In this document: piece after piece, positions 6,896 through 33,776 of the stretch
Layout of the letters: every line of letters begins with the position of its first letter
Numbering within the stretch: the first letter of the stretch is position 1
DNA from: Clostridia bacterium
Lineage (GTDB): Bacteria; Bacillota; Clostridia; UBA1381; UBA9506
Reading direction: 5' to 3'
NCBI GenBank assembly: GCA_017415145.1
Contig: JAFQJE010000010.1
Location: forward strand, 1-64,000
DNA: 64,000 nt
Made by a program: the position numbers and the translations under genes
The notes under the pieces: generated by a model
What the model was told of the DNA's origin: nothing
Seen by the model: the letters and a program-made list of their open reading frames with translations, nothing else
The model's database searches: none

Positions 6896-6911
6896 AGTAA
6901 ACACTCCTTTT

Positions 6912-7625
6912 TTATTTGTCGTCAAAGTATTGTATAATACCGCAATAGATAGACCACGCTACCTGCTTTTGGTAATTTTCATCTAAAAGTTTTTTCTCCT
7001 CGAGGTCATTTGATAAAAAGCCACACTCTATCAGAATTGCAGGTATTGCGGCGTTTTTCAATAAATATATGCTGTCGTACGCCTCTTTTATTTCCCTTTC
7101 AGATACAGGGGAAAGTGCCGCTATCATATTGTGCTGTACACATTCAGCAAGTTTTTTACTGTCGTCATGGTTTACAGAATAAAACACCTGAGGACCGCTG
7201 TACTGCTTTTGTGGAAACTTATTCATGTGAATACTTATGAATGCATCCGCATCGCTTTCCTGCATAAGCTTTTCACGATTTTTAATATCTGAAACTTTTT
7301 TGCTTTTTATACTTCCTGAAACATCGTAAATACCATTATCATCAGATCGTGTAAGGATAACTTGTGTACCGCCTGCCTCTAAAAAATTCTGCAAAGCTTT
7401 AGCGACAGCAAGATTTAAGTCTTTTTCCAAAACTCCTGACTGCCCCACCGCACCACCATCGGGTGCACCATGACCCGCATCAATTATGATTGTCCTTCCC
7501 TCTGAAGGTAAAAAGGTTTGCTGATTAGAAAATACTGCAGATTTTAATATTCCACAGGCGAATACCACCAAGGACAGTATTAAAAATCCAAAAACTAAGC
7601 TGTTTTTTTTTAAAACAAATAACAT
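6912..7625 (-). CDS. cwlD: N-acetylmuramoyl-L-alanine amidase, CwlD-like
   Basis: Zinc amidase (Amidase_3) that cleaves the stem peptide from muramic acid. In Bacillus, CwlD acts with PdaA to make the muramic-delta-lactam of spore cortex, and a pdaA gene is present at 45160. From the ATG at 7625 it has 237 aa, with one N-terminal membrane segment and an exported catalytic domain. Zinc and catalytic residues can be placed at His52 (DAGHGAPDGG), Glu67, His133 (SIHMN) and Glu200 (IECGFLSN). The length matches CwlD rather than larger autolysins with repeats. Two possible promoters lie in the 220-bp leader region. Confidence 0.88.
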   Translation of the reverse strand: MLFVLKKNSLVFGFLILSLVVFACGILKSAVFSNQQTFLPSEGRTIIIDAGHGAPDGGAVGQSGVLEKDLNLAVAKALQNFLEAGGTQVILTRSDDNGIYDVSGSIKSKKVSDIKNREKLMQESDADAFISIHMNKFPQKQYSGPQVFYSVNHDDSKKLAECVQHNMIAALSPVSEREIKEAYDSIYLLKNAAIPAILIECGFLSNDLEEKKLLDENYQKQVAWSIYCGIIQYFDDK

Positions 7626-15893: not shown

Positions 15894-16604
15894 TTATTCG
15901 TAATAATAATACCTTCTTCTCTTGTAGTAATATTTCTTTGATTTTGCATCAAATGCATCATTAACTACAAATCCCAGAATGTTTGCTTTTGCAAACTCGA
16001 GGAGTGATATAGACTCTTTTACAGCTTTAAAATGTGAACTATCTTTCTTTACTACAACTACAACACCAGACACAAACTGCGTAAGATATATTGTTTCTGA
16101 AACAATTCCCACAGGCGGCGTATCAATAAAGATATAGTCATATTTCTCCGAAAGCTCTTCAAACATATGCTCTACTTCGTCTATCATCAAAAGTTCTGAA
16201 GGGTTGGGAGGTACTCTGCCTGAAAATAAGCAATCAAAATTACAACCTTCAGGTCTTGAGATTGCCTCTTCTAAAGTACAAAAACCTCCAAGATAATCAG
16301 ATAAACCCGTTGTTTTTCTGTCGCTATTTGTATAACGTGCAATTTTAGGACGTCTAAGATCTGCATCAACCACTAAAACTTTAGCGTTTGAATCAGCATA
16401 TGCAGCAGCAACATTTATACAACTTGTGCTCTTGCCATCTCCCTGTTCAGCACTGGTAAAAAGTATAATTTTGGCTTTTTCCTTATTAGTGCCTACTAAA
16501 GCAAACATCATATTTGCTCTGATATTTTTAAAGCTTTCTGATATACGAGTTACGTCTTTTACTTGTTTTGGATCGTCTGTTGCTAATAAATTTTTAAAAA
16601 ACAT
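15894..16604 (-). CDS. CpsD/CapB-like bacterial tyrosine kinase (BY-kinase)
   Basis: Cytoplasmic P-loop tyrosine autokinase of 236 aa that controls polysaccharide chain export with its membrane partner. Walker A is at 51-61 (SAEQGDGKSTS), Walker A' at 77-82 (VLVVDAD) and Walker B at 157-162 (YIFIDTPP). The C terminus is a tyrosine cluster, with seven Tyr in the last 14 residues (KKYYYKRRRYYYYE), which is the expected autophosphorylation tail. The partner gene directly upstream encodes the transmembrane activator. No CpsB phosphatase or glycosyltransferase is in the operon, which is unusual. Family call is secure; the exported polymer is unknown. Confidence 0.9.
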   Translation of the reverse strand: MFFKNLLATDDPKQVKDVTRISESFKNIRANMMFALVGTNKEKAKIILFTSAEQGDGKSTSCINVAAAYADSNAKVLVVDADLRRPKIARYTNSDRKTTGLSDYLGGFCTLEEAISRPEGCNFDCLFSGRVPPNPSELLMIDEVEHMFEELSEKYDYIFIDTPPVGIVSETIYLTQFVSGVVVVVKKDSSHFKAVKESISLLEFAKANILGFVVNDAFDAKSKKYYYKRRRYYYYE

Positions 16605-16643: not shown

Positions 16644-17378
16644 CTATTTATCTTTTTTGCCTTTAGTTTTCTTTTTCTTTTGCTTTTTTTCCTTGGTATT
16701 TGTTGTGAAATAAGGAACTTCGCCTAAAACAGGGTATTTAAATATTTCTGCGATAGTTTCAGCATCTTTAACCTTGTTGTCAAGCATCTCTATTGCAAAC
16801 ACCAGAATCAAGCTTATTAACAAACCGGCAAATACGCCAATTTCAACATTTCTCACCATATTTGGCGACGAAGGAAATTGAGGATATTCAGGTTCGTCAA
16901 GTATCTTTACGTTACCACCTTCAACGATTGCCATAATCTGCTCCGACGCAAGATTGATAATAGTCTGAGCTATAATGTATGCATGCTGAGGATTTGCAGA
17001 GGTAACCGTTATAACAAGAATTTCGGTATTACTCTTATCCGTCATACTTACCATTTTTAAAATCTGTTCATGGTTATAGCCTAAGCCACTTGTTGTAGCT
17101 ACTTTCTTCATAAAAACATTACTTGTCAAAACTTCGGCATAAGTTTTTACAAGTTCCTGCCTAACCATAACCTCACTCAAGTTAATGTCAGTAGTCGTTG
17201 TAACTATATCAGTTGTATTTTCGGCATATAAAGAACCACCTGAAACGTACATAGGTGTTATAAAGAATGTTGTAAACAAACCTGACAGCAAACCGCCGAT
17301 TATCATTGCAACAACAAGACACCACCAACGTCTCATATATAATCTTAATAAATCCATTAAATTAATTTGCTTATCCAC
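16644..17378 (-). CDS. Wzz/CpsC-like chain-length regulator and kinase activator
   Basis: Membrane protein of 244 aa with two anchors, at about 14-36 (WWCLVVAMIIGG...) and 180-200, and an extracytoplasmic domain between them. This is the Wzz/YveK arrangement. The segment EYPQFPSSPN just before the second anchor is the usual proline-rich motif. The cytoplasmic C terminus is very lysine-rich (KKQKKKKTKGKKDK). The start is a GTG about 9 nt after AAGGAG. It lies 39 bp upstream of the tyrosine kinase, its expected partner, and 40 bp downstream of an SLH-protein gene, so it probably belongs to the long operon starting at 23225. Confidence 0.88.
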   Translation of the reverse strand: MDKQINLMDLLRLYMRRWWCLVVAMIIGGLLSGLFTTFFITPMYVSGGSLYAENTTDIVTTTTDINLSEVMVRQELVKTYAEVLTSNVFMKKVATTSGLGYNHEQILKMVSMTDKSNTEILVITVTSANPQHAYIIAQTIINLASEQIMAIVEGGNVKILDEPEYPQFPSSPNMVRNVEIGVFAGLLISLILVFAIEMLDNKVKDAETIAEIFKYPVLGEVPYFTTNTKEKKQKKKKTKGKKDK

Positions 17379-17418: not shown

Positions 17419-19053
17419 TCAATTTGTAAATACTGCCTTTACATATGCACTTGTTCTGGGTAGATACATATCCATAAAAGACTCATATGTTTCAAATACT
17501 ACATAAAATTCCTGACCTAATTTTACTGTTTTTTCTATAGGATTTTTAATCATATCTCCGAAAAGTTTATCAACAGAAATGTTTGTGTTGTCTGCATTAT
17601 TCTGTACTGTAAATTTCACAGTAAATACAGCCTTGCCATTTTCCTTATAAGAAGCTGACGGATAGAAAACAAACTTCACATTGTAACCTGTATTCTTTTC
17701 TATGTAATCAACAACTTCGTTTGTGTAAGTGATATACACAGATGCCATTTTGTTGAATGAATTGTAGTATTCTTTTGCAACTACAGTATTGCTTTTCAAA
17801 TTATACACACCAACGGGTACACCTGATATCAAACGATAAAAATCACCATTGTTTGCTGGATAACTGGGTAAATAAGTGTTCATCTTTGCATTACCCATAG
17901 TTCCGTTTGTATAAGTAGTACCTAAGCCGATAACTTCATTAAATTGAAGTAACAATGCTGCATATTTCTTGACAGTAACAGGTTCTTCTGCACCTAATCT
18001 ACCATTGGCATAGAGCTTGATACCATGCGTTTTAGCGTATGTTAAAGACATGTCTTCATAAACTGCACTACTTAAATTCTTGCAATCAGGATAGTAATCA
18101 TTTTGCTTACCAAAATCAGAAGGAGCTGTGCCACGTCGAATAAATCCATACATAATGGCACCGATGGCATCCTGCATGGTTGCCTGAGAGTCCGCATTCT
18201 TAATTGTGTAAAATTCTTCTCCCCATACCATTTTGCATAATATATACATTTCCTTCGCATACTTGTGCTCGAAATGTTTAACAGGTTCATTTTGTTTATT
18301 TACAAGGTCATTGCCAACCATGTTAATCGCACCGCCATCTGCGGCAAAAACAATCGCCATTCGTGCAAGTTCTGCATTTGTAAGAACTCTATCCGCCTTA
18401 TAATCTTCACCTAAAAGATTCAAGGTGTTATATGTCTTTTTTAACAGTTCTTCATCTACTATATCAATAAAGTTATTTGTTGCATTTGCCGCAACCATTT
18501 CACGCGAGCGGATAATAAGCGTAGCTGCCTCTGCTCTGGTTAAAGAACCATCAAGACGTAAATTCAAACCATCGTCGCCTTTCATAAGTCCAATTGTATA
18601 TGCCCATGAAGCGGCATCGGGATTTGTGCCCTGCTTGGTGATTGCGGAAGGAGCATCATTATGCTTAGGAGAGCCGTTTCTTTTCCAGATAAGGTTTATA
18701 ACATCCCCTCTTTTAATTTCCATATCAGGGTATATCATAGAACCAATAGCATCAAGACCTGACCACATAATATAATCATAGGCCCAATGAGACTCAGAAA
18801 TGTCAGAATATGTACCATTGTACTTTTGGTCCCACTTACCAATCATTTTTGCAAATTCGGCACGTGTAACGGTTTTTGAAGGCTTGAAGGTACCGTCCTC
18901 GTAACCATTAATAGTGCCTTCATTTACCAAAGACATAATGTTTTTATATGCCCAATGGTTATCTGCCAAATCAGAAAATGTAACTGCGTTTACGCACACA
19001 CACATTGACATAATCAGGCACAAGCTAAGTATTAATGTTATAACTCTTTTCAT
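17419..19053 (-). CDS. S-layer homology (SLH) domain surface protein
   Basis: Exported protein of 544 aa. After a signal peptide (about 1-24) come SLH repeats: FSDLADNHWAYKNI...GYEDGTFKPSKTVTRAEF (about 26-75), a divergent second copy (about 80-125) and a third ending DGSLTRAEAATLIIRSREM (about 140-185). Further weak SLH-like segments follow, up to about 380. The last 150 residues form an unassigned domain. SLH domains usually bind pyruvylated secondary cell-wall polymer. The ATG at 19053 has GGAG 6 nt upstream. It lies between the HPr-kinase-like gene and the wzz-like gene in the same transcription unit. The partner of its C-terminal domain is not evident. Confidence 0.85.
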   Translation of the reverse strand: MKRVITLILSLCLIMSMCVCVNAVTFSDLADNHWAYKNIMSLVNEGTINGYEDGTFKPSKTVTRAEFAKMIGKWDQKYNGTYSDISESHWAYDYIMWSGLDAIGSMIYPDMEIKRGDVINLIWKRNGSPKHNDAPSAITKQGTNPDAASWAYTIGLMKGDDGLNLRLDGSLTRAEAATLIIRSREMVAANATNNFIDIVDEELLKKTYNTLNLLGEDYKADRVLTNAELARMAIVFAADGGAINMVGNDLVNKQNEPVKHFEHKYAKEMYILCKMVWGEEFYTIKNADSQATMQDAIGAIMYGFIRRGTAPSDFGKQNDYYPDCKNLSSAVYEDMSLTYAKTHGIKLYANGRLGAEEPVTVKKYAALLLQFNEVIGLGTTYTNGTMGNAKMNTYLPSYPANNGDFYRLISGVPVGVYNLKSNTVVAKEYYNSFNKMASVYITYTNEVVDYIEKNTGYNVKFVFYPSASYKENGKAVFTVKFTVQNNADNTNISVDKLFGDMIKNPIEKTVKLGQEFYVVFETYESFMDMYLPRTSAYVKAVFTN

Positions 19054-19087: not shown

Positions 19088-19960
19088 TTAATCCTCAGGA
19101 AATACCGTCGATTTTACCATATCTACTGCCTCTTTTGATATGTTGCAAGTAAGCTCATAAATAGGCGTTTTTTTGATAATATTCGTGATAATTTCCATAT
19201 GTTTATCCATTAAATGCTCAAACACCGGCTTTTTTGTTTCGTTGAGAAGTTTTACAACTGACTCTATTGTCGAAAGCGGGCGTATTGAATTTTCTTTACC
19301 TTGTTTTAAGAACACAATGGCAGCAAGGGGAAAATACTTATTTTCGTTGATTTCAGTTTTCCCGCTCCACGGAGTTCCACATGCATATAGCTTATCTTCT
19401 TGTTCTAAAATAACAGGTGTATCATCATTAAATAACACAACATCGTCAGGATAGAATTTTTTCCACAAAGACGTGTGTGTTGATTTTCCTGTTTCGGAAG
19501 GCGCTGAAAATAAAATCGCCTGTCCTTTATATGAAGCTGCTGCAGAATGAAGCACAGTCTGACCGTACATTGTCTGGCAAAATGCAAATGCATCACCCAA
19601 TATCATATGCAGCACGCGATCTGTCGTAAGTTCTTTGTAATAGTCTTTTATATCAACGTATTCTATCAATACGTTTTTGCAGGATTTATCAAAATCCATA
19701 CGGTTGAGGTTTATACGTGTCACGGAATTCTGCTTTACAGCAGAGTATCCTTCATTACCTCTGTCTACCCAATACCACGCATCAAGTCTTTTGAAGTCTT
19801 TACCTTCAGGTACTGTAATTCCATAATTCTCATTAAAAGAAAACGTAATATCCGGCATAGGGTGCGTACCTGGGTCCAGGTACGCACTTAATCTATGCTC
19901 TAAATACTCGTTTTCAAACTCTTTAATTTCAATTAAAATGTTTGCAATACGATAAAACAT
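19088..19960 (-). CDS. HPr-kinase-like protein of the RiPP-associated type
   Basis: A 290-aa cytoplasmic P-loop protein resembling the C-terminal half of HPr kinase. The N-terminal 110 residues are unassigned. Walker A lies at 153-161 (APSETGKST), preceded by LHSAAA at 137-142. An FNDDTPVI motif (Asp179/Asp180) and GTPWSGK at 195-201 follow, both typical of HprK relatives in peptide-modification clusters. It starts 13 bp after the stop of the 63-aa peptide gene, with no clear Shine-Dalgarno site, so it is probably translationally coupled. In the Paenibacillus lasso peptide paeninodin, a kinase of this class phosphorylates the C-terminal Ser of the precursor. The 63-aa peptide here also ends in Ser. 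It is not a true HPr kinase, because the usual HPr-binding organisation is missing. Confidence 0.78.
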   Translation of the reverse strand: MFYRIANILIEIKEFENEYLEHRLSAYLDPGTHPMPDITFSFNENYGITVPEGKDFKRLDAWYWVDRGNEGYSAVKQNSVTRINLNRMDFDKSCKNVLIEYVDIKDYYKELTTDRVLHMILGDAFAFCQTMYGQTVLHSAAASYKGQAILFSAPSETGKSTHTSLWKKFYPDDVVLFNDDTPVILEQEDKLYACGTPWSGKTEINENKYFPLAAIVFLKQGKENSIRPLSTIESVVKLLNETKKPVFEHLMDKHMEIITNIIKKTPIYELTCNISKEAVDMVKSTVFPED

Positions 19961-19973
19961 AATTTTAAATCAG

Positions 19974-20165
19974 TTAGCTAACTGTGTAATCGCCGTCTTT
20001 GTCAAGACCTGTGCCTAATGCAGAAAGGGCCATTGATACAGCTCTCTTCTGAGCAATAGCATTTTCTCTTGTTGAGCCCTTATAAACTGTTGTAGGAACA
20101 GCAGCGATATTTTCTTTGAGCTGTAATTCAATTACATTAATGCTCGGTTTTACATATTTTTTCAT
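19974..20165 (-). CDS. 63-aa peptide, candidate RiPP precursor
   Basis: A short protein that starts with MKKYVKPSINVIELQLKEN, resembling the leader-like N termini of small peptides in clostridial PqqD-linked cassettes. The second half is rich in Ala, Ser and Gly (AVSMALSALGTGL) and ends DKDGDYTVS, with Ser as the last residue. It has a good ribosome site (GGGAGG, about 10 nt from ATG). It lies between an exported protein and the HPr-kinase-like gene, in one operon with a PqqD-family protein and an ABC exporter. No Cys is present, which excludes a lanthipeptide or sactipeptide core. Precursor status is inferred from context. It could instead be a small structural protein. Confidence 0.6.
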   Translation of the reverse strand: MKKYVKPSINVIELQLKENIAAVPTTVYKGSTRENAIAQKRAVSMALSALGTGLDKDGDYTVS

Positions 20166-20183
20166 TATATCTCTACCTCCCTA

Positions 20184-21215
20184 TTAGTTTTCTTCTGCTG
20201 CAGGAATTTCAATAGTCGTATTTGCTTCAGAAAGCACGTACTTATCTGCGGCTTCATCATAAGCATATACTTTTACGTTGTATGTTGCACCTGCTTCAAT
20301 CATAGCACCTGTTTTTGATGTATCAATAATCTGTACAGCGAATAAACCTTGCTCATAACCCAATTTGTCATCGTCTTCTTCTAACATTGTTATACCTTCG
20401 TAAGCAATGTTAGCATCATATGTTGTAATTGCACTTTTTGAAACAAGGATACCATACTTTGTAGCACCTGTTGCTTTGCCTATAACTGTAAGCTTAACGT
20501 CACCCTTAGATGCCTGAATGTCAGCATTTTCAATTACGTTGCCATCTGCGTCTGTTACATCGCCTATAACGCCGTCAACCTTACCTGTTGAAATTTTTGC
20601 ACCGATTTCAAGCACTTCAGCTGTAGCGTTAACACCAACAGCTTCTTTTTCATGAAGTGTTAAGGCAATATTTCCATTGATAGCTGCAAATGTTACGTTG
20701 ATTTTTCCTGCTGATTCAGACTGTGAAGTAATTGTAGCATCGTCTGTGGTAACTTCATCGAACTGCATGCCGTCAGAAGCACTATAGTTAAATGTAACTT
20801 TTGTCTGACCTTCATCTGTAGCTATAACAGTCTGATTCTGATGATCAAGTGTTACTGTGTAACCATCAACTTCTCCGCCTTCTTCTTCAGCACTACTTGC
20901 ACCTGTAACGCCAACTTTAGCGGTTGTAGTTCCAAGGTTACCAACCTCTGTACGATAGTTGAATGTTACCGCACCGTTCTCATCTGCCTTATCCTGGTTA
21001 ATATGAACATCTGTTGAACCATTCTTGGCATAGTATGTTACGTTGTCGCCCTCATCAGCACCTGCAACATTTACTTCAACATCAATGTAGACATCATCGA
21101 CATACTTTGTTGTTGTAGTAACAGTAACAGCTGAAGCGCTAACAGCAAAACATACAACTAAAGCGATAGCCATAACTAAAGCGGTAATCTTTTTGAATAC
21201 CCCATTTTTTGCCAT
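20184..21215 (-). CDS. Secreted beta-rich protein of unknown function
   Basis: Exported protein of 343 aa with a signal peptide (about 1-30, cut near SASAVT). Residues 33-200 contain repeated beta-sandwich-like segments (for example VYIDVEVNVAG, VTFNYRT, VTFNYSA) rich in Thr, Asp and Val, suggestive of Ig-like or adhesin modules. Residues 200-340 form another Val/Thr-rich domain. The mature protein is acidic and contains no cysteine that I can see. It has no SLH domain or LPXTG anchor, so it is probably secreted or held by partners. The ATG follows GGAGG. It sits between the ABC exporter and the 63-aa peptide, so a role as cargo or partner of that cassette is possible. Confidence 0.75.
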   Translation of the reverse strand: MAKNGVFKKITALVMAIALVVCFAVSASAVTVTTTTKYVDDVYIDVEVNVAGADEGDNVTYYAKNGSTDVHINQDKADENGAVTFNYRTEVGNLGTTTAKVGVTGASSAEEEGGEVDGYTVTLDHQNQTVIATDEGQTKVTFNYSASDGMQFDEVTTDDATITSQSESAGKINVTFAAINGNIALTLHEKEAVGVNATAEVLEIGAKISTGKVDGVIGDVTDADGNVIENADIQASKGDVKLTVIGKATGATKYGILVSKSAITTYDANIAYEGITMLEEDDDKLGYEQGLFAVQIIDTSKTGAMIEAGATYNVKVYAYDEAADKYVLSEANTTIEIPAAEEN

Positions 21216-21268
21216 TTTTTTTCCTCCTTTAATCGTGGATTGGATTAATAAAAATCCGGGGGGGATAT

Positions 21269-22939
21269 TTATTGAAGCTCGTTAAGTGAGCCATCCTGCA
21301 ATATGTAAGTCTTGTCACAAGCCTCCATTACTTCTTTTCTGTGAGAAATAATAATGCAGGTTTTGTCTGTCATTGACTTAATAGCATTCAGTAGCTTTTC
21401 CTCTGTTGCAATATCCAAAGAAGATGTAGCTTCATCAAGCAACAGTATAGGTGCATCATGGTAAAGTGCTCTGGCTATTGCCAGTCGTTGCACCTGTCCT
21501 TCGGACAGACCGTGACCTTTTTCGCCTAAAACAGTATTAAACCCATCAGGCATTTTATTAATATCATCTATAATCTGAGCAGCAGTTGCTGCGCGAATTA
21601 TCTTATCCATATCAGGAGTTTCATCACAGAAAGTAATGTTGTCCCTGATTGTTCCCGACAAAATCATATTTCCCTGTGGAACGTAGGAAAAAAGCCTTCT
21701 CGTTGACGATGAAAAGTCAATGTCCTTTTTCCCATTCTTAACATATGCCCTGCCATTATCAGGTCTTATAACCGATAGTATAATTTTTGACAGTGTGCTC
21801 TTTCCTGCACCGGATATTCCACAAAGGGCAACAAGTTCCCCTTTATTAACGGTAAAACAAACATCCTTCAAAACAGAAACATCGCCGTATGAAAAATCAA
21901 CATTTTCAAATGTAAGCTTTTCAAAGGACGCTATATCTTCTGTTGTGAACTGTGTATCCTGCTTGTCATCAGGAAGGTTGTCAAGTTCAATTAATCTTTC
22001 TGTCGAGGCCAGTACCATGTAAACTTGTGGCAACACTGACGCTATCTCGCGGAAGGGCGATTGAATCTGTCCCACAAGTGCTAAAATCGCAGTTAATGTA
22101 CCGAATGTGAAGGCAGTATCCCCGATACTAAGGCGATACACACCCCATGCAAGTGCTGCATAGTATCCTACGGTCATTGCTAAAAAGAATAATATATTTG
22201 AAATAATACCTATGGTTGAACGCTTTACGTTTAACCGATAATTTTCAAGCTGAAGTTTTAATGAATTTTTTCGCATCAGGCTTTCTTTAGAAAATGCCTT
22301 CACCACAATAAAATTCTGAATGGTTTCCTGTAAGTGCGAACGAACTTTGCCGTCACTTTCGCGACATTGCAGATGTAATGTTTTAATTTTTTTCTTATAT
22401 ATGTAAGCTGCAATAAGAACTATCGGTCCAAAAACTAAACAGCACAATGCAAACTTATTGTCTAACCTGTATAAAGCAATAAAACTGAACAATACTGTGG
22501 AAACTAGAGCCACCACGTTCGGGATAATTTCTGTCGTCTTTTCAGCCAAAAGCGAAACATCACTTACAAGTCGGTTCAGAATTTCACCAGAATGAATCTT
22601 CGAAACCTGACCATAATCCTTTGAGAGCAATTTATAAAAAAGCTCTGACCTTAACGCCATGGAAAGCTTTCCGCTTACCATAATATGTATTCTTACATAT
22701 ACAATCTGTAACACAAGTTGAATTATCAAATAAGCTATAAGTTCGATTATCGATGCTTTCAAACTTCCATCTGCCTGATTTGTTGCAATATCGATAAGAC
22801 TTTTAGATACCAGTGAAAACTGTACACCAATGTAAGAAATCACCGTCACAATCAGCACAAGAATCAGGATAAGAGGTATAAAAGTGCGGATACGTTCAAA
22901 AATCCATTTTACTGTCAAGGATTTCCCTTTTTTCAACAC
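21269..22939 (-). CDS. ABC transporter, fused membrane and ATPase domains (exporter type)
   Basis: Half-size ABC exporter of about 556 aa. Six membrane segments (about 15-310) precede the ATPase. Walker A is GISGAGKST, the Q-loop region is YVPQGN, the signature is LSEGQVQRLAIARAL, and Walker B is ILLLDEAT followed by a switch His in IISHRKE. There is no N-terminal C39 peptidase domain. I favour GTG at 22939, 7 nt after AAAGG; a TTG one codon later is also possible. It follows the PqqD gene by 19 bp. Exporters of this layout are common in lasso-peptide and related clusters, where they secrete the product and give immunity. Confidence 0.88.
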   Translation of the reverse strand: MLKKGKSLTVKWIFERIRTFIPLILILVLIVTVISYIGVQFSLVSKSLIDIATNQADGSLKASIIELIAYLIIQLVLQIVYVRIHIMVSGKLSMALRSELFYKLLSKDYGQVSKIHSGEILNRLVSDVSLLAEKTTEIIPNVVALVSTVLFSFIALYRLDNKFALCCLVFGPIVLIAAYIYKKKIKTLHLQCRESDGKVRSHLQETIQNFIVVKAFSKESLMRKNSLKLQLENYRLNVKRSTIGIISNILFFLAMTVGYYAALAWGVYRLSIGDTAFTFGTLTAILALVGQIQSPFREIASVLPQVYMVLASTERLIELDNLPDDKQDTQFTTEDIASFEKLTFENVDFSYGDVSVLKDVCFTVNKGELVALCGISGAGKSTLSKIILSVIRPDNGRAYVKNGKKDIDFSSSTRRLFSYVPQGNMILSGTIRDNITFCDETPDMDKIIRAATAAQIIDDINKMPDGFNTVLGEKGHGLSEGQVQRLAIARALYHDAPILLLDEATSSLDIATEEKLLNAIKSMTDKTCIIISHRKEVMEACDKTYILQDGSLNELQ

Positions 22940-22958
22940 TAACCCGCCTTTCAAAACT

Positions 22959-23225
22959 TTACTGAGCCAGAAAATCGTGAGTTTTTAATAGCTCTGCAAA
23001 CTCTGCAACATCGCCAATTACTTCTTCACTGGAAACGTTATATTCTGATGCTAAAGCATCAGCCAATTCAAAAATTGTCTTTTCTTCTGAGAGTTGTTCC
23101 CACAAAAATGCGCCACTTTCATTAAGAGAAACCGCCACTGCAAAATCCACAATGTTGTCGCCTGTTGGGACTACTATATAATCATCTAATATTTTCTTTA
23201 GTATAAAACCTTCTTTTAATCTCAT
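22959..23225 (-). CDS. PqqD-family peptide-recognition (RRE) protein
   Basis: Small cytoplasmic protein of 88 aa matching the PqqD / RiPP recognition element fold. Beta strands come first (residues 5-30, FILKKILDDYIVVP), then the hallmark LNESGAFLWEQLSEEKT at about 36-52, and then helices ELADALASEYNV and EVIGDVAEFAELLKTHDFL. PqqD proteins bind the leader of a precursor peptide and present it to modifying enzymes. It is the first gene of the operon, 54 bp from a consensus promoter. The ATG follows GGGGGAG. No radical SAM, cyclase or transglutaminase-like peptidase gene is nearby. Confidence 0.88.
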   Translation of the reverse strand: MRLKEGFILKKILDDYIVVPTGDNIVDFAVAVSLNESGAFLWEQLSEEKTIFELADALASEYNVSSEEVIGDVAEFAELLKTHDFLAQ

Positions 23226-23278
23226 AGTCTCCCCCAAAAATAGGCATAGATATACCTGTACTTATACCATACATTAAA

Positions 23279-23307
23279 AGTATAGCATAGTGAAATTTTA
23301 AAGTCAA
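23279..23307 (-). promoter_or_regulatory. Promoter of the PqqD-ABC-peptide-kinase operon
   Basis: TTGACT (23302-23307) and TATACT (23279-23284) on the minus strand with a 17-bp spacer. It lies just after the terminator of the upstream surface-protein operon, so the two units are separately controlled. Confidence 0.75.
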
Positions 23308-23372: not shown

Positions 23373-23400
23373 AAAGGAGAGTCAATATTGACTCTCCTTT
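23373..23400 (-). terminator. Terminator of the surface-protein operon
   Basis: A perfect 12-bp stem (AAAGGAGAGTCA / TGACTCTCCTTT) with an ATAT loop, followed by TTTTTACTTTTTTT on the minus strand. Confidence 0.88.
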
Positions 23401-24825: not shown

Positions 24826-27800
24826 TTATTCAGCTTTTATATCTGAGAAGGGATAGAATACCATTCCGCCAGGAGCAGGATTATATACAACAAAATATCC
24901 ACGTGCCTGAATCTTACCTGTAGTATCATCTGTAAAGTCAATAACGTTTTTGCCATTGATGTTAAGAATAACTCTGGTACCTGCCTCAGTTTCAAGAGCA
25001 CCAATAACTACACTATATCTCTTGTTGTATTCTAATATCTTATTACCTTCTTCATTAGGAATACCGTTACCGCCGATAGGATTATATGAATTTCCGAAGA
25101 TCATAGTACGTACACCGCCATTAAATCTCTGGAATTCAATATGGTCTGATTTGAAACCAATCATGTAGCAGTCGTTAGAACTATATTTACCCATTGCATC
25201 ATTATCGCAGATTGCAAACGACGGCCATGAGCTACCAGGCTGAACTTCAACATCAAATGCAACAAGTTCATTATCAATAACACCCATATGATGGTTAGGT
25301 GAACCATTTACTTTGATGCCTTCACCCTGTCTTATACCAGGACTCTTCCAACCAGTTGCATACTTGAACTCTCTATACGGAAGTGTTGCGCCTTCTTCGC
25401 TGTTGTAGCTGATAATTTTTACAGGAATATTTACGTCATATGACACATCATTGTATGTAACAGTACCAGCTAACGTTGTAGTACCTACACCAATAGCCTT
25501 AAGTATATATTCTCTTGCAGTCTTTTCGATAGTAACAATTCCATCTTCAAGAGGTGCAACATCTACTATAGCATCAGGTGTAATTCTTATTTTATGACCG
25601 AATGTTGTATGTGCTTCTACGTCCATTAATAATTTAGAATCTTTAATAAGGTTAATCTTATCTGAATTTAAGTAAACTTTCTCAATTTCATCGCCGCACT
25701 GTAGTTTGAAATGCTGGCTATAAGTATGACCGTTAAATGTTGCAACAGCTTCTAATTCATACTCACCCTGTTTGTGGGCTGTGATGTAACCATTCTCATC
25801 TACTGTTACAGCTTCAGGATCTTCACACCACCAGTCAATTTCAAAATCAGATAAAGGATATGAATTATTGTAGCGGTCTAAGATGATAAGATCTGAGAAA
25901 ACAGGCTTTTCAAGGGGAACTGACTGCCATCTGTCGCGACCAAACATAATAATCGGACCATCTACATTAAAGTTACCTGCATATTCGGGTTCAATGCCTG
26001 ATTCTGCCATAATCGCCTTTGCTTCCTCTGGCCACTGACCGTCTTTAACCATTTTAATTGGTTCGATATTACTTTCGGTCATATTCATCCAACCATATTC
26101 ATAACCGTAATCACAGTCAGCATAAAGGTTTTCTGTAGTAATCCACATAATTGTTGTGGTATGCATATGCATAGCCCATGCTTTTTTCGAACCGTCACTC
26201 TCCAAGTTGTATTCCATAATCTTCGCCATATGAGAGTCTATTACATTGTCTTTAACATACCAAGATGTTGAACCCTGGTCAGGATAAATGAAACCACAGT
26301 TCCATACGTTGTAGAGGTAGTTGCCCCACATTTTATTGTTTTTCGCCGTGTTTGTCTTCTCACATTCGAGTGAGGAAGCACCAAGTGTATAGATAGCACC
26401 ACCGTCATATATACGGTCCGCCATTACATTGTGGATTCTGTTGTAGTTTACTTCTACATCGTACATAATTGAACCTGTTGCCGCGTATACATCCCAATCG
26501 TAACCAATGTGGAAGCCTGAATAAGGTGCATTAACTATTTCGTTGTGGTTAAACTCTGAGTGTCTGGGCCAAGCAAATGACATCGCAGCACCTGACTTGT
26601 AGTCTAAGCATACGTCACGAACATAGTTGTTATTTACTCTTACATATTCACAGTAATCATTTGGTGTTCTTCTTGAGGGGTAACCGGTAAGCTCAATATT
26701 ATCAACTGTGATAGCAGTACCGGAAATATCATAAAAGTGGTTGCCTATAACATCAACGTGCTTTGAACCTTCCATAAATTCAACACCAGTAACACCCATC
26801 TGTCTGAAAATGTTATTTGTCATTGTGATGTTGTTACAGAATTCAAAATGAATAGCTGCACCGGGAACATAATCCTTAGACTCACGAATATGGTTGTTCT
26901 GTGCGTCGGCATGACCACCTTCCCTTGTAGGTCTCATCCATGTTGTACCTTCAAAGCAAATATTATCAAACTTGAGGTTGGATACTGCTTCTTCAGAATC
27001 TATACCTTTTGCTTCGATCATTACTTCGCCTTCAGGGAACTTAAGTGTCATTGTACTCATATCTTCGCCCGCTCTGGGAATGTAGTACATGTATCCATCA
27101 TGTTTGTTCATATACCATTCACCAGGCTGGTCAACGAGTTCATAAGCATTCTCTATGTATGAAGGACATTCTGCAATTCTGCCAGCGGCAAAGTTGACAC
27201 GTACACTAACCCACTTAAAATAACTGTGGGGATCAATTCTTACTCTGCCGTCTGATGTCTCAGTAATGCTTGCTACTGTAACTCTTGGGTTACACCAGTT
27301 AATGTGATAAACCAATTCCAAATCTGTAGGATGTTCATACTGTAAAAGACTTAAGTCATCACAAAGATAGTATGACTGATCAATATATTGAATATTATCG
27401 AGGTATCCTACACCTCTTGCTCTGATACCCTTAACGTTGTTAAAGTAAGCCTGTCTGGTGTCCATACCGCGACCTATATATAACTTGTATATATTTTTCT
27501 CTGCGTCGTGGAGCTTAAATCCTGTGTATTCATCAGCCATTGTGAGTACAGGTTTCTCGTCACCCCATGAGGTATAAACAATGCTATAGCCATTTTTACC
27601 TGAGTGTGTTTCATCTAATTTCAGTGTACTGTTCAAACGGAAAGTGCCACGCATTAAAATTTTAATATCATTTTTCATAGACGGAGCACATTTCTTTGCT
27701 AAATCGCGAGCCGCTTCAATTGTCTTTAAAGGTTCATTTACAGTACCATCGCCTTTGTTGTTACCATTCTGGGCATCAACGTAGATGTGCATTCTTGAAC

Positions 27801-29016
27801 TAATTTCAACTATTCTGAAAAGAATCTGAGCAGCTTCTGCTCTTGTAATACTATTTGCAGGCTTATATGAACCATCAGCATAACCCTTAATTAATCCATA
27901 AGAAGTTGCCTTTTTAACGCCGTCAACAGCCCATTTTGAAATACTATTATTATCAATAAATGATGTAGCATTTTCTTTAACAGCTGCACCACGATCTGCT
28001 GCAACTTTAGCTGCAATTGATGCAGCCTCTTCTCTTGTAATAACCGCATCAGGCTTAGCGTATCCGCCAGCCTTTAATGCTACATCAATAAGGCCAATTT
28101 TATCGGCTATCATATACGAACCTGCGAACCATTCATCGCCTTTTATATCTTTAAATCTGCCGTCGTATTTGGGTTCTTCAATATTATAGAGATCAGCTAC
28201 CATCTTGATAAACTGCGCTCTTGTCAAGTGAGCTTCAGGTGAATACAAACCATTGCCGATACCATTTACATAATTAAAAGCGGCAAGGTCTTCAATAACC
28301 ATTTCAGCCCAGTGACCTGTCACATCTGAGAACTCTACTTTCTGTGTTACAGAGCTTCCTGTTTCTACTACTTCCTCTTCTTCGCTTTCAACAAAACCTG
28401 CGTTTATTGAAGAATAGTCAGCGGGTACATTACCGTAAGGAACAACAGAAAATTCATCAATGTAAACAGTACACGGCATCGGTGTGCCCTGAGAACCGAA
28501 ACGGAACTGGTACTTACCACTACCACTTGTCTGTTCACCCTTTGTATTAATACCTGTACATTCCCATGTCATTGTATACTTAGACCAGCCGGTTGACATT
28601 GTACCTACTGTGAGATAAGACCAACCGCCATCATCGTATGATATAAGGGGATGAAATGCTGTAACAGATGGTGTATCTGTCTTATAATAGAACGAGATAT
28701 CATATGTTTCACCTACTACTGTGGGGAAATCAATATATATTTCTCTAACAGAAGATGCTGATGAAGAATCATATTTAAGACAGTTCTTTGTTCCGTTTGC
28801 ACCGCCTTTTACAATCTCGCACTCATTTCCTGATGATGATGATGTGAAATAAACCTTGCTAAGTACAGCAGGATCTTCAAAACCACCCCATAGTTCAAAT
28901 ATGTTTTTTGCAGCTCCACCTTCATCATCATAGTCCTTTTTTGCAGCCATTGCTGAAGGGATGGAGGATACCAACATAACTATTGCTAAAAAAGCAGTTA
29001 ATAACTTCTTTTTCAT
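24826..29016 (-). CDS. SLH-anchored right-handed beta-helix protein, probable carbohydrate-active enzyme
   Basis: Surface protein of 1396 aa. Order: signal peptide (1-24); CBM-like jelly roll (about 35-200); three SLH repeats (about 228-400); right-handed parallel beta-helix (about 405-950), opening with MHIYVDAQNGNNKGDGTVNE and containing many N-x-I/F coils and DGGAIYTLG; a Big_2-like domain (about 1030-1110); a further beta domain; and a C-terminal concanavalin-like domain (about 1240-1396). Beta-helix domains with this opening occur in polysaccharide lyases and glycoside hydrolases, including families such as GH120 and GH141. The exact family cannot be fixed by eye. The AGGAGGTG site overlaps the end of the preceding frame, so translation is coupled. 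It is held at the wall by SLH and probably attacks plant or mucin glycans. Confidence 0.82.
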   Translation of the reverse strand: MKKKLLTAFLAIVMLVSSIPSAMAAKKDYDDEGGAAKNIFELWGGFEDPAVLSKVYFTSSSSGNECEIVKGGANGTKNCLKYDSSSASSVREIYIDFPTVVGETYDISFYYKTDTPSVTAFHPLISYDDGGWSYLTVGTMSTGWSKYTMTWECTGINTKGEQTSGSGKYQFRFGSQGTPMPCTVYIDEFSVVPYGNVPADYSSINAGFVESEEEEVVETGSSVTQKVEFSDVTGHWAEMVIEDLAAFNYVNGIGNGLYSPEAHLTRAQFIKMVADLYNIEEPKYDGRFKDIKGDEWFAGSYMIADKIGLIDVALKAGGYAKPDAVITREEAASIAAKVAADRGAAVKENATSFIDNNSISKWAVDGVKKATSYGLIKGYADGSYKPANSITRAEAAQILFRIVEISSRMHIYVDAQNGNNKGDGTVNEPLKTIEAARDLAKKCAPSMKNDIKILMRGTFRLNSTLKLDETHSGKNGYSIVYTSWGDEKPVLTMADEYTGFKLHDAEKNIYKLYIGRGMDTRQAYFNNVKGIRARGVGYLDNIQYIDQSYYLCDDLSLLQYEHPTDLELVYHINWCNPRVTVASITETSDGRVRIDPHSYFKWVSVRVNFAAGRIAECPSYIENAYELVDQPGEWYMNKHDGYMYYIPRAGEDMSTMTLKFPEGEVMIEAKGIDSEEAVSNLKFDNICFEGTTWMRPTREGGHADAQNNHIRESKDYVPGAAIHFEFCNNITMTNNIFRQMGVTGVEFMEGSKHVDVIGNHFYDISGTAITVDNIELTGYPSRRTPNDYCEYVRVNNNYVRDVCLDYKSGAAMSFAWPRHSEFNHNEIVNAPYSGFHIGYDWDVYAATGSIMYDVEVNYNRIHNVMADRIYDGGAIYTLGASSLECEKTNTAKNNKMWGNYLYNVWNCGFIYPDQGSTSWYVKDNVIDSHMAKIMEYNLESDGSKKAWAMHMHTTTIMWITTENLYADCDYGYEYGWMNMTESNIEPIKMVKDGQWPEEAKAIMAESGIEPEYAGNFNVDGPIIMFGRDRWQSVPLEKPVFSDLIILDRYNNSYPLSDFEIDWWCEDPEAVTVDENGYITAHKQGEYELEAVATFNGHTYSQHFKLQCGDEIEKVYLNSDKINLIKDSKLLMDVEAHTTFGHKIRITPDAIVDVAPLEDGIVTIEKTAREYILKAIGVGTTTLAGTVTYNDVSYDVNIPVKIISYNSEEGATLPYREFKYATGWKSPGIRQGEGIKVNGSPNHHMGVIDNELVAFDVEVQPGSSWPSFAICDNDAMGKYSSNDCYMIGFKSDHIEFQRFNGGVRTMIFGNSYNPIGGNGIPNEEGNKILEYNKRYSVVIGALETEAGTRVILNINGKNVIDFTDDTTGKIQARGYFVVYNPAPGGMVFYPFSDIKAE

Positions 29017-29019
29017 AAC

Positions 29020-29787
29020 TTACTGGTCACCTCCTGCTAACTTCAAAAGTTCATATGTAACCTTTGCTATCTGTGCACGAGTTACATATGTTTTGGGTGA
29101 GAATGTGTTGTCGCCCATTCCGTTAATTATACCTGCACTTGTTAATGTTGATACAGCTTCTTTTGCATATCCTGAAACTGAGCCGTTGTCAGTAAAGTTT
29201 ATAGGAGTACCAGAAACTTCGATGCCAACTAAATTCAATACACGATATATAATTACTGCCATATCTTCTCTGGTTGTCTGGTGGGTAGGACCGAAGTCAT
29301 CGCCATAACCATTTACAATACCAAGACGGTTTGCTGAAGCAATATAACTGTAACTCCATCTGTCGGCTGAAATGTCTTTAAAATCACAACCTGCACTGTT
29401 TTCAACTAAGCCAAAAGCAACCGTAACAATTTTTGTAATTTCCTCTCTTGTTACAGGGTCGTTAGGAACGTACTCGTTGGCTGTTTTTCCGTTAATAATA
29501 CCCTTTGATGCAAGATAATCAATCGCTTCTTTAGCCCAATCTGCACCTTCTAAATCTGTAAACGGAGAGCTTGCTACAGGTGAAGATGTTTCATTTTCTT
29601 TACCTGTGTTTGGTTTAACTATACCTGTGCTTGCGCCAGGTGTTGTTGGTTTGTCTATAGTAGGAGTACCGCTTGGAGAGGTACCGGGGCCGGGAGTTAT
29701 TACAGTACCGCCTGAAGGGATTTTTTCTGACAATTCCCCAGCGTGTTTTTCTACATTATCCATAAATGTATCAAAGTCTGCATTTTC
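29020..29787 (-). pseudogene. SLH-anchor half of an S-layer protein, cut off by an in-frame TAA
   Basis: This stretch continues the preceding gene in the same reading frame, directly after its TAA codon (29788-29790). It encodes the end of a helical segment (ENADFDTF, then MDNVEKHAGEL), a Gly/Pro/Thr linker, and three good SLH repeats (about 29535-29585 to 29030). The only nearby ATG (29763) has no Shine-Dalgarno site, and the product would lack a signal peptide, so an SLH protein made from it would stay in the cytoplasm. The best reading is one exported protein of about 624 aa split by a nonsense codon. Readthrough, a sequencing error or a recent mutation cannot be told apart here. Confidence 0.75.
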
Positions 29788-30894
29788 TTACTCTTGCACT
29801 GCTTTCCAAAGGTCTATTTCCATCTCAGCATTTTTTAAAGCGCTAATATCAGCAGCTGTATCTGCATCAAGTGTGAATAGTCCTTCTCCTTCATAGTACG
29901 CAAATGCTGAAGCTAATGAACCTGCACCTCTTGAACTTTCAATTAAGAGAAGAGTTGCTCTATCAAACGCATCTGCATACTCGTCCATATCAAGAACTGC
30001 AACATCCGCAGATTCTGACATAAATAAACTATACACATCTGCTTCTTCTAAAAGCATATTAAGAATAGATTCATCTTCTGACTCTTCGTCGTAGTAGTGA
30101 CCATCAAAAAGCCCGTCACCTATTGCTTCCTCTGATAATGCGGGCCAATTTGCCTCTGAAACAGCGGCAATTTTTGCAACCTGCATAGCCGCATTAAATG
30201 TATTTGTAAATAATTCGTCTACTGCTGAAAGAGCTGCTTCGTTCTGTTCTGCCTTACTTTCATCTAGTATATCTTCAGCAGTAATGCCTGTATTCAAGTC
30301 TTCGCCTAATGATGCAATTTCAGCGTTTACAAGTGCTAAAACATTTGTTGGCAAGTCTTTGTAAGCTGCTAAGTCCTCAGGTGCAATCGGCACATAAGTT
30401 TCATTATCAATAAAGTACTGCTTAATTGCATCTGCATCTAAATCTTTAAGGCCATTATGATGTACGATTTCCGGTAAACCGGTTTCTTCATTAATAACTG
30501 TTTCATTGTAACCATCATAAAATTTTACCTTTTCGTCGAACTTTACATAGTTAAACTCTTTAGGAGCAGGAGTTACATTGTTACCTACACGAACAATATA
30601 TTTTCCTGTATCAACATCACTACCAAATGTAAAGTTAAATGTATATTGGTATACTCCGTTCGACAGAACAGGAGCACTATTTACGCTCATACCATAAAGC
30701 GTATCCTGATTCTTATTCATTAACTGCGCTGTCATAGTTCCGCCGACATCGGATTTTACTGTAACTATTACATTATAAACTCTAACTTCAATATCAATGT
30801 TGCTACTGCTAAAGTCTGCTGCTGTCACAGTAAACATAGACGCCATAAGAACGAGTGCCGACAGTACTACAGATAATACTCTTCTTATTGTCAT
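29788..30894 (-). CDS. Exported N-terminal part of a split S-layer protein
   Basis: A 368-aa frame with a signal peptide (about 1-26, VTAA), a beta-rich domain at about 30-135 (IDIEVRVYNVIVTV...GKYIVRVG) and a long acidic, mostly helical region at about 150-368 rich in Ala, Glu and Leu. It ends abruptly inside the helical region (DLWKAVQE then TAA). Without the downstream SLH repeats it would have no wall anchor and would be released. The ATG has an AAGGAGG site. It follows the 932-aa SLH gene by 34 bp and belongs to the same operon. I did not recognise a known family for the N-terminal domains. Confidence 0.75.
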   Translation of the reverse strand: MTIRRVLSVVLSALVLMASMFTVTAADFSSSNIDIEVRVYNVIVTVKSDVGGTMTAQLMNKNQDTLYGMSVNSAPVLSNGVYQYTFNFTFGSDVDTGKYIVRVGNNVTPAPKEFNYVKFDEKVKFYDGYNETVINEETGLPEIVHHNGLKDLDADAIKQYFIDNETYVPIAPEDLAAYKDLPTNVLALVNAEIASLGEDLNTGITAEDILDESKAEQNEAALSAVDELFTNTFNAAMQVAKIAAVSEANWPALSEEAIGDGLFDGHYYDEESEDESILNMLLEEADVYSLFMSESADVAVLDMDEYADAFDRATLLLIESSRGAGSLASAFAYYEGEGLFTLDADTAADISALKNAEMEIDLWKAVQE

Positions 30895-30928
30895 ATTATC
30901 CTCCTTCTGTAAACATTTTGCTTACTAT

Positions 30929-33727
30929 TTATCTAAATATAATTACCTGCTGTGGTGCATAATAATCGCCTATCTTAGCTATAAACTGATCGCCAGATTT
31001 TAAATCTGCTAACTTAGCTTCAATAACCTTCTCACGATCATGCTGATAAATAAGATATGAAACTGTACCGCCGGTGTAGAGAACAACCTCTTCTCCACCA
31101 ATATCTACTTTAAGAAGTCTTGACTCTGTATCATTAGTAAGCACCTTACCTACAACAAGCAGCTCTTCAACCTGACCATTGAGAATACTTGTGCTAAAGG
31201 TGTTTGTGTTACTATTTGACTCGCTATAGAATAAAGGTGTAAGAACATTACTACTATTAACGTTAATAATATACTCTGCAACACGACTTATAGATTCTGC
31301 TACACCTTGTAAATTCGTTGAATACTGAATTACAACACCGGGTCTTATAGGTGCCGAAGCACCACCAGAAACTAAATCGGTAACGCTCTTTCTCTCCGAT
31401 ACAGTTGTGCTACTACCGCTACGATAATCAACCTCTCTGGCCAAGTTAACAGATGCACCGTTATTAAAGTAAATCTTCTTAACAGGCAAACCGTCTTCAT
31501 CTACCGAATCAGTAATCTCTGTGATTACTGCCAACGTGCTTGTAGTAGCAGATATAGTACTTGTACCTAAACCACGTAACAGTACTGCACTTACTGTAGG
31601 AATCTCAGATGTCTGTTCGCTATACAACGAAAGTTCTGTAAGTGCCTCATATTTGGTTTTGTTATAGCCATATATCATATCTACGCGAAGGTTGCCATAT
31701 ATGCGATATCCTTCTAAATCTGACACATCGTCCGGAGCAACAAAAACTACACCATTTGCACTGTCAAAACGTGTAAATAATTTTGTTCCATTGTCTTCTT
31801 CAGGCTGTGCCATCATCATGTAGTTTCTACGTACCAACATGTACTTATAGTTATCCGCAACCACATTAAGTGTGCCAGGACCGCCGTTAGAACCTGTATC
31901 AATTGAAGAAATCTCATCACCATTTAATGTGTACTTGACAACATATGCCTTATTTATAACATACTTCCCATCTCTTGTTCCATTAGAAATTATTCCCAAA
32001 ACGGTGTCAGCTATTGACGCGTTAGTCATATCGCGCTTTACATTATTAACTGTAACTTTTTCAGCCAGGCGAGCATCAACAAATTCACCCTGTGCTGTAA
32101 ATATTTTAAGGGTGTATCTACTGGATATATTTCCTATTTTGTAATCCAAACCAGCTACTACGCCATAACTTGAGAAGTCATCTTGACTACTATATTTATA
32201 TGTAACAATTTTGTTGTTCATATCAACATAGAACTTACCTGAAAGACCTACCCTTAGAGTTTCACCATTATAATTGTAAGCAGGCTTATAGTAAACATCA
32301 CCTATAAGGTAACTGGGTTTAGTGTCTGATGCTTCGATTTTACCGTCAACCGTCTCTCTGGAAATGTAAACTGTGATTACTTTTTTATCACCTTTACTGC
32401 GAACAATACTTAATACATCGTTGGGACTAATGCTTACAAAAGATCTTTTCTTTGTATCACCAACAAATATAACGTTCACTTTGTGTTTACTTGAATCCAA
32501 CTCGATTGTAGCTCCGGTAAACTTATCAGTAACGCTTTCATTATAAGAATCCACGTTAGCAACGAGAATATTTTCGTATTCGTATACAAAAAGAACATCA
32601 TATATTCCGTCATTATTATTATCGAGGGCTTCAATATAGCCTCTATCTGCATCGGGTAACGCATTTGCAAGAACGCCATAGCCGCCCCAATACTGATTAT
32701 TATAAATAATATCTACATTATCGATAAGGTCAATATGATATTCATCAGATTCCTCATCCTCATAATAAATTCTGCTGTCCGTTGTTTTAGAATTTAAAAT
32801 ATCTTCGGAATCAATTTTCTGCACTGAATTACTTTTTGCTTTTTCCTCAATATATACCATTTCAACATCTGTGGATGAATTATAGTTTAAATAGTAATTA
32901 ACAGTGTATCCCAAAAAATAGCCGTATACATATCCTGGTGTATCGTACAATACACGGTCAATCTCTATCTGCTCATCTGTTAAATTAGATGTCGCTGATG
33001 TCAAACGTGTATATTCATTACCAGTTACCTGTCCACTATACTTTTGGATTCCGTATGTTGTGTACAGGAATGTATCTGTTGCAGAAAGTGTATATGTAAC
33101 ACTGCCGTCTCCATAATACTGAGGCACCACGGTGGCAGCATCTAAAGCAGCCTCTAAAATCTTGTAGAGGTCAGGAAAAGATACAGGATCTGTTCCCTTC
33201 TGCATTGTGAGCCCTTTCAGCATACCGAGTCTAATTGCCACTCTGTGGTAACCTGTAGGATAACCACCCTCACGCATTGCAAACATATTATAGCCGATGG
33301 CGTTTACAACAAACACAAGTGCTTCGTCATATGTAAGATTCTTATCGGGGTTAAATCTTAATTGTTCATCACCAGCTATAACTCCCAAATCATACAATGC
33401 TCTGATTGCAGCAAAGGCTGAATCATTTTTTGATACATCACGAAATGGTGTATCAGCGTCGCTACCTGAAATATGCAGATTCATATACTTTGCAATTATT
33501 TCTGCCATATCCCTTCTGGTAACATAAGTTGTCGCGTCGTACTTGACATCAATAACACCAAGTGCTTCTAACTTTTCGATTCTCAAAGCGTCCTCATCTG
33601 TAACTGTCACAGCCTCTGCTGTTACAGACGCTGCGTCCTCTGCAGATACAGAAATTGAAAATGCGAACAAAGAAGCAACTGTAGCTAAGACTACAAGCAA
33701 TGCAACTAAACGTTTCATCTTCTTCAT
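30929..33727 (-). CDS. Large SLH-domain surface protein
   Basis: Exported protein of 932 aa, first gene of the surface operon. A signal peptide (about 1-28, ending SVSAED) is followed by SLH repeats at about 45-80 (LGVIDVKYDATTYVTRRDMAEI) and 90-150 (FRDVSKNDSAFAAIRALYDL...), with a third, divergent one after it. The remaining 700 residues are beta-strand-rich with many Tyr, Asn and Ser and several YxVDMNNKIVTYKYSS-like segments. They do not match a family I know. The ATG at 33727 follows GGAGG closely. A strong promoter and the position as first gene suggest an abundant protein, perhaps a structural S-layer component. Confidence 0.8.
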   Translation of the reverse strand: MKKMKRLVALLVVLATVASLFAFSISVSAEDAASVTAEAVTVTDEDALRIEKLEALGVIDVKYDATTYVTRRDMAEIIAKYMNLHISGSDADTPFRDVSKNDSAFAAIRALYDLGVIAGDEQLRFNPDKNLTYDEALVFVVNAIGYNMFAMREGGYPTGYHRVAIRLGMLKGLTMQKGTDPVSFPDLYKILEAALDAATVVPQYYGDGSVTYTLSATDTFLYTTYGIQKYSGQVTGNEYTRLTSATSNLTDEQIEIDRVLYDTPGYVYGYFLGYTVNYYLNYNSSTDVEMVYIEEKAKSNSVQKIDSEDILNSKTTDSRIYYEDEESDEYHIDLIDNVDIIYNNQYWGGYGVLANALPDADRGYIEALDNNNDGIYDVLFVYEYENILVANVDSYNESVTDKFTGATIELDSSKHKVNVIFVGDTKKRSFVSISPNDVLSIVRSKGDKKVITVYISRETVDGKIEASDTKPSYLIGDVYYKPAYNYNGETLRVGLSGKFYVDMNNKIVTYKYSSQDDFSSYGVVAGLDYKIGNISSRYTLKIFTAQGEFVDARLAEKVTVNNVKRDMTNASIADTVLGIISNGTRDGKYVINKAYVVKYTLNGDEISSIDTGSNGGPGTLNVVADNYKYMLVRRNYMMMAQPEEDNGTKLFTRFDSANGVVFVAPDDVSDLEGYRIYGNLRVDMIYGYNKTKYEALTELSLYSEQTSEIPTVSAVLLRGLGTSTISATTSTLAVITEITDSVDEDGLPVKKIYFNNGASVNLAREVDYRSGSSTTVSERKSVTDLVSGGASAPIRPGVVIQYSTNLQGVAESISRVAEYIINVNSSNVLTPLFYSESNSNTNTFSTSILNGQVEELLVVGKVLTNDTESRLLKVDIGGEEVVLYTGGTVSYLIYQHDREKVIEAKLADLKSGDQFIAKIGDYYAPQQVIIFR

Positions 33728-33776
33728 ACCCTCTTCCTCCATTTATATAATTTATAAGTATAAAAAATACAAATAT

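Follow-up and report, generated by a model that had tools for sequence, protein, structure and literature searches.

A cyclase-free PqqD and HPr-kinase-like gene cassette in a gut Clostridia bacterium, probably a variant of the linear polyphosphorylated peptide systems and conserved with surface proteins

Phosphorylated lasso peptides such as paeninodin, pseudomycoidin and Bsf (PMC8498205, PMC10368454) depend on clusters with a discrete PqqD-like B1 protein, a YxxP leader, an HPr-kinase homolog and an ABC exporter. What, then, would be made by a locus that holds these genes and a short peptide gene but has no cyclase, no transglutaminase-like B2 peptidase and no Gly/Asp ring pattern in the peptide core? 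Such a locus lies in the 64,000-nt stretch of DNA analyzed here (the window; gut Clostridia bacterium GCA_017415145.1, contig JAFQJE010000010.1), where the initial annotation had described it as a reduced, RiPP-like cassette.

Gene order and transcription unit

The cassette consists of five co-directional genes on the minus strand, running from 23225 to 19088 and encoding a PqqD-fold protein, an ABC exporter, a secreted protein, a 63-aa peptide and an HPr-kinase-like protein, with gaps of 4, 53, 18 and 13 bp between them. The PqqD gene starts with an ATG at 23225 that is preceded by a GGGGGAG ribosome site. A consensus scan placed a promoter-like site (TTGACT-17-TATACT with the TG of an extended -10; 23279..23307, minus strand) 3' of a terminator-like hairpin (23373..23400, minus strand; a 12-pair stem and then a T run), which delimits the cassette against the preceding gene. 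Because promoter-like sites were not above chance across the region (30 observed vs 27.2 expected), the call rests on the position of this site; read in this way, the annotated arrangement of five adjacent same-strand genes behind one promoter was confirmed. Beyond the kinase gene, minus-strand genes for an SLH-domain protein (17419..19053), a Wzz-type chain-length protein (16644..17378; PF02706) and a CpsD-like tyrosine kinase (15894..16604; AAA_31) follow at gaps of 22, 40 and 39 bp, the last of which is also seen in L048, the locus of the sole congener carrying the cassette and our reference for identity and codon comparisons. No strong intergenic terminator was found ahead of the SLH gene; therefore, the transcription unit probably extends through all three of these genes, as had been proposed, with the CpsD-like gene likely its last. 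Immediately upstream of the cassette (24826-33742), the window holds a series of SLH and GH141/beta-helix-like secreted proteins.

Of 391 Clostridia genomes, 39 contained a match to a secreted-protein profile, about 20 of them a strong one, and this search combined with a scan of GTDB genomes yielded 29 distinct loci with a strong match, spanning many Clostridia families. The peptide was present in 28 of these loci, PqqD, exporter and kinase in 24 each, the SLH family in 20, an S24/S26 peptidase in 16, Wzz in seven and a nucleotidyltransferase in a single one, several of the absences being contig ends. The usual order is PqqD, S24 peptidase, ABC exporter, secreted protein, peptide, HPrK and SLH protein, optionally followed by Wzz and CpsD. 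This order recurs in divergent genomes and is more than chance, so the genes are indeed kept together across Clostridia, and with SLH or capsule genes, as the initial annotation had asked to be checked. The secreted-protein gene adjoins the peptide gene in 28/29 loci, even with PqqD and ABC genes elsewhere (L053, L061, L062, L103): in one genus (g3; L053, L061 and L062) the trio of secreted protein, peptide and HPrK is intact. The five genes listed at the outset are real, but the usual full set adds a SipW-like (S24/S26) peptidase that is absent from the window's operon.

Recognition element, precursor, kinase and exporter

The closest described systems are the linear polyphosphorylated peptides (LPPs) of Bacilli, reported in May 2026 (Popov et al., Nat Commun 2026; PMC13381572). 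Their cyclase-free clusters encode the RiPP recognition element (RRE) LppB, the HprK-like kinase LppK, the SipW-like peptidase LppS, the MsbA-like exporter LppD, the NTP transferase LppN and a YxxP precursor with the motif YxxPxVLxHQxIxFETxxS. LppK was shown experimentally to phosphorylate Ser3 and does not accept Thr in its place, cleavage by LppS is RRE-dependent, i.e., proceeds with the help of LppB, and the LppB-leader complex has been crystallized (9x8z) (PMC13381572).

The PqqD protein of the window (22959..23225, minus strand; 88 aa; PF05402, 55.8 bits) matched TbiB1, its closest structure, and LppB (9x8z) in the PDB. The alignment with LppB is free of gaps over the binding pocket, and equivalents of N33, Y60, D70 and F74 are present in the window and retained in most cassettes, with N33 kept in 29 and D70 in 26 of 31 rows from the cassettes examined (a few rows being duplicates). 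The lasso B1-type model NF033536 reached 27.2 bits, under its cut-off of 80. By homology, the protein appears to be a discrete, LppB-like RRE with a YxxP pocket, which would bind the leader. The precursors of L100/L163 and L137 carry an additional N-terminal stretch (MKKFAFEGAGVNGFEMP...) and FxxP in place of YxxP, and in their PqqD proteins Ala replaces D70, the residue that contacts the Tyr hydroxyl, possibly a case of RRE-leader coevolution.

The 63-aa precursor (19974..20165, minus strand), supported by family alignment and codon constraint, has a leader, MKKYVKPSINVIELQLKENIAA, and a core with a PTTVY motif. The leader combines a YKKP-type YxxP part with a second half of the form ELxxxENIAA; an Ile/Val close to the leader end is also seen in Bsf. 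Compared with L048, codons 1-30 show seven synonymous and no nonsynonymous changes and are under strong purifying selection, more than expected by chance, whereas the rest of the peptide has a pN of 0.35 and a pS of 0.40; leader and PTTVY are therefore held fixed while the tail drifts. Across the family, 17/33 peptides contain the core motif P-x-T-x-[YWF], vs 0.29 expected from shuffles (kinship ignored), and this motif is new with respect to LPPs. The leader of the window also differs from LPPs in lacking the HQxIxFET end, and the core lacks Ser3: if cleavage follows ENIA/ENIAA, no Ser occupies that place, and phosphorylation therefore cannot occur there. The conserved core residue is Thr, followed by variable Ser residues, and since LppK refuses Thr, the phosphate acceptor may be one of these variable Ser. 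A C-terminal Ser as a general, paeninodin-like phosphate site was rejected, as 8/33 peptides end in Ser, which is no more than a mild excess (p 0.015, kinship ignored).

The HPr-kinase-like protein (19088..19960, minus strand; 290 aa) contains a P-loop (SETGKST) and an NDD motif, and the P-loop and DD residues are invariant in the alignment. It did not reach the cut-off of any Pfam or NCBIfam model, the best being ScmC (29.3 bits, cut-off 125), with HprK_rel_A at 17.1 bits (cut-off 200), and searching the PDB by sequence with its profile returned no HPr kinase. The relationship was found by fold search: the AlphaFold 2 model (pLDDT 91.5) matched PEPCK and HprK/P in Foldseek, including Lactobacillus casei HprK/P (1kkl_B, E 1.2e-5, TM 0.51 by target), which agrees with the initial naming and points to an HprK-like kinase with predicted activity. 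Kinase homologs were found in 79/150 relatives. A 108-row tree placed every cassette kinase on one side, at moderate branch support from SH-aLRT alone, and most kinases from HPrK-PqqD-S24 clusters without the secreted protein sat apart from them. In one genus (g4; L054, L056, L059, L060, L065, L066), solitary HPrK genes lie amid housekeeping genes, while genome G005 has its secreted protein and peptide on a different contig (L103). The ABC exporter (21269..22954, minus strand; 561 aa) combines ABC_membrane and ABC_tran domains and is MsbA-like, MsbA being its best NCBIfam model; no C39 leader-peptidase domain was matched in it.

SynChlorMet (ScmC/ScmD) and HPr-rel-A systems (NCBIfam) likewise pair a PqqD-like with an HprK-related protein, but the kinase of the window lies far under their cut-offs (125 and 200 bits) and no radical SAM enzymes are found at its cassette. 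Radical-SAM YxxP clusters from Desulfosporosinus (L184, L186) and genome G118 (L067) share the leader type, PqqD, HPrK, S24, ABC exporter and a cps-like locus, but differ by a radical SAM enzyme, several precursors and the lack of the secreted beta protein. Some of their peptides contain Cys, others are His/Pro-rich, NTP_transf_5 genes are present too, and these clusters possibly form a separate radical-SAM RiPP class.

Absent lasso enzymes and candidate leader peptidases

The lasso-type B2 peptidase (Transglut_core3, PF13471) was absent from the window's genome and, among cassette genomes, from all 13 tested, of which seven have a completeness of 90% or more, and the asparagine-synthetase-like cyclase (PF00733) was represented in the window's genome by fragments of 43-58 positions only. 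In keeping with the initial annotation, neither enzyme is thus found in the window, nor was a cyclase/B2 pair found elsewhere in the genome, which is 85% complete, so that absences there are not absolute. These results bear on the idea that the locus is a former lasso-peptide cluster, decayed through loss of its cyclase and B2 enzyme. Although a YxxP leader and a B1-type RRE, both lasso features, are present, conservation of the set without a cyclase extends over many families, B2 is missing from 13/13 genomes tested, and the genes are intact and constrained; moreover, clusters that combine these enzymes and have no cyclase are already an established family (PMC13381572). Decay was rejected on these grounds and is highly improbable, and the cassette, rather than being "reduced", belongs with a separate, LPP-like family.

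Two LPP functions are encoded elsewhere or missing. No NTP transferase (PF14907, LppN-type) was found in the window's genome (85% complete); outside the cassette, it occurs in 16/20 cassette genomes vs 121/371 others (Fisher p 3e-5, phylogeny ignored). Regarding leader cleavage, the window's genome encodes a stand-alone S24 homolog, flanked by serS and a deaminase gene (G000:C13, L126), which is a candidate leader peptidase; this activity is probably supplied in trans here. In G169, a 99% complete genome with a complete cassette, no S24 peptidase was found anywhere. A second system in the window's genome (L032, G000:C3) comprises an HPrK-S24 fusion paralog (6103-7182; Pfam Peptidase_S24, 31.5 bits) beside a 59-aa YxxP peptide with VPTTV (8450-8629); the fusion ties kinase and peptidase functionally. 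Nearby genes encode a 1100-aa secreted protein and a copper-amine-oxidase-N-like secreted protein.

Surface partners and competing explanations

A component that sets the cassette apart from LPPs is the secreted beta protein (20184..21215, minus strand; 343 aa), whose homologs define the 29 loci. It has a signal peptide, directly after which the mature protein begins with TTTxY in the alignment, and an invariant Gln in Y[IV][DN]Q. No Pfam family was matched, and its AlphaFold 2 model (pLDDT 76.6, pTM 0.49) is all-beta and multi-domain, with weak, domain-level matches to adhesin and FnIII folds. The SLH-domain protein (SLH 71 bits) belongs to one full-length family located downstream of the kinase in most cassettes, and its conservation extends past the SLH repeats. 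Identity to the congener L048 is 88% for the kinase, 78% for the exporter, 70% for the SLH protein and 45% for the secreted protein. No literature linking PqqD to SLH proteins or S-layers was found. Very short YxxP peptides with acidic tails were also observed at HPrK loci (L038, 5046-5153; L044, 7345-7440; L208, 12960-13085; L039, 8542-8733), where the adjoining secreted proteins are large (1570 and 1734 aa among them); the first three loci have PqqD and S24 as well. Pairing of a peptide with a secreted protein may be a general feature.

Overall, we consider it likely that the cassette is a Clostridia variant of the LPP type. This assignment is based on the gene order conserved across families, the match of the enzyme set to LPPs, the retained RRE residues, the kinase fold and its invariant residues, the HPrK-S24 fusion beside a VPTTV peptide, the constrained precursor and the lack of B2 in 13 cassette genomes and of a cyclase in the window's genome. 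Shared with LPPs are the discrete RRE with LppB-type residues, HprK-like kinase, MsbA-like exporter, YxxP precursor, absence of an own macrolactam cyclase or B2, a capsule-gene neighborhood and, in most relatives, a SipW-like peptidase. Differences are the Clostridia rather than Bacilli host, the secreted beta protein and SLH partner, which are not reported for LPPs, the rarity of the nucleotidyltransferase inside the cassette and the lack of a peptidase gene in cis in the window. Counted against the assignment are the missing cis S24 here, the S24-free genome G169, the absent leader end HQxIxFETxxS with its Ser3, and the conserved core Thr given that LppK refuses Thr. By homology with these systems, the free RRE would grip the YxxP part of the leader and present the peptide to the HPr-kinase-like enzyme, which would phosphorylate one or more core hydroxyl residues. 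The leader would then be cut after ENIA/ENIAA by the SipW-like peptidase, which most relatives encode in cis and which here probably acts in trans, and the ABC protein would export a linear phosphopeptide. Outside the cell, this phosphopeptide may act with the secreted beta protein and SLH protein at the S-layer or capsule surface, a role argued from conserved neighbors only (guilt by association). The initial proposal of a phosphorylated, exported and uncyclized peptide is supported: neither of the two outcomes named as refuting it was observed, and a phosphorylated, processed and uncyclized peptide was demonstrated experimentally for the homologous LPP clusters of Bacilli (PMC13381572).

Alternatively, the peptide could be a short adaptor or tag rather than a diffusible product, which after modification is attached to the secreted beta protein or becomes part of its fold, thereby building or anchoring an SLH-held surface layer. 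The near-constant adjacency of the two genes, even where PqqD and ABC are elsewhere, is consistent with this idea, as are the conserved T-T-x-[YW]-like sequences in both proteins and the combination of an invariant Gln with the ester-bond adhesin Cpe0147 as best, albeit weak, fold match (TM 0.2). However, peptide cores match the secreted N-terminus no better than other stretches. In an unbiased best-6-mer comparison with approximate signal-peptide cuts, the best match was N-terminal in 1/23 pairs vs 1.5 expected from shuffles, and mimicry of the TTTxY start by a TTxY core was rejected. A Thr-Gln ester-bond domain was likewise rejected, as no conserved His, Asp or Glu accompanies the Gln and the Cpe0147 match is so poor. 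We regard the adaptor as improbable. The more specific version, in which the phosphorylated, exported peptide would bind or join the secreted protein via its P-x-T-x-[YWF] core while the SLH protein holds the latter on the wall, has a similarly small chance of being correct; if true, it would make this a RiPP serving envelope assembly, not antibiosis or signaling.

Production of an antimicrobial or signaling RiPP, with the secreted and SLH proteins serving as immunity or receptor proteins, seems unlikely. A strictly kept leader with a fast-evolving C-terminal half is a pattern known from conflict systems, the secreted protein has diverged far more than the kinase, and LPPs in Bacilli have a patchy, transfer-like distribution (PMC13381572). 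Yet fast evolution is also typical of exposed surface proteins, the kinase tree groups the cassette members, and the neighbors of the operon are Wzz/CpsD genes, not regulators or mobile elements.

Under the favored LPP-type assignment, this kind of system gains from the Clostridia branch a conserved core motif and two conserved partners, namely the secreted beta protein and a single SLH family. The role of LPP phosphopeptides, for which the 2026 description assigned no function or final product, therefore becomes testable, and the complete cassette is available in a cultured isolate, Ructibacterium gallinarum DSM 107454 (L163). The conserved secreted and SLH partners hint at what LPP-type peptides do at the cell surface.
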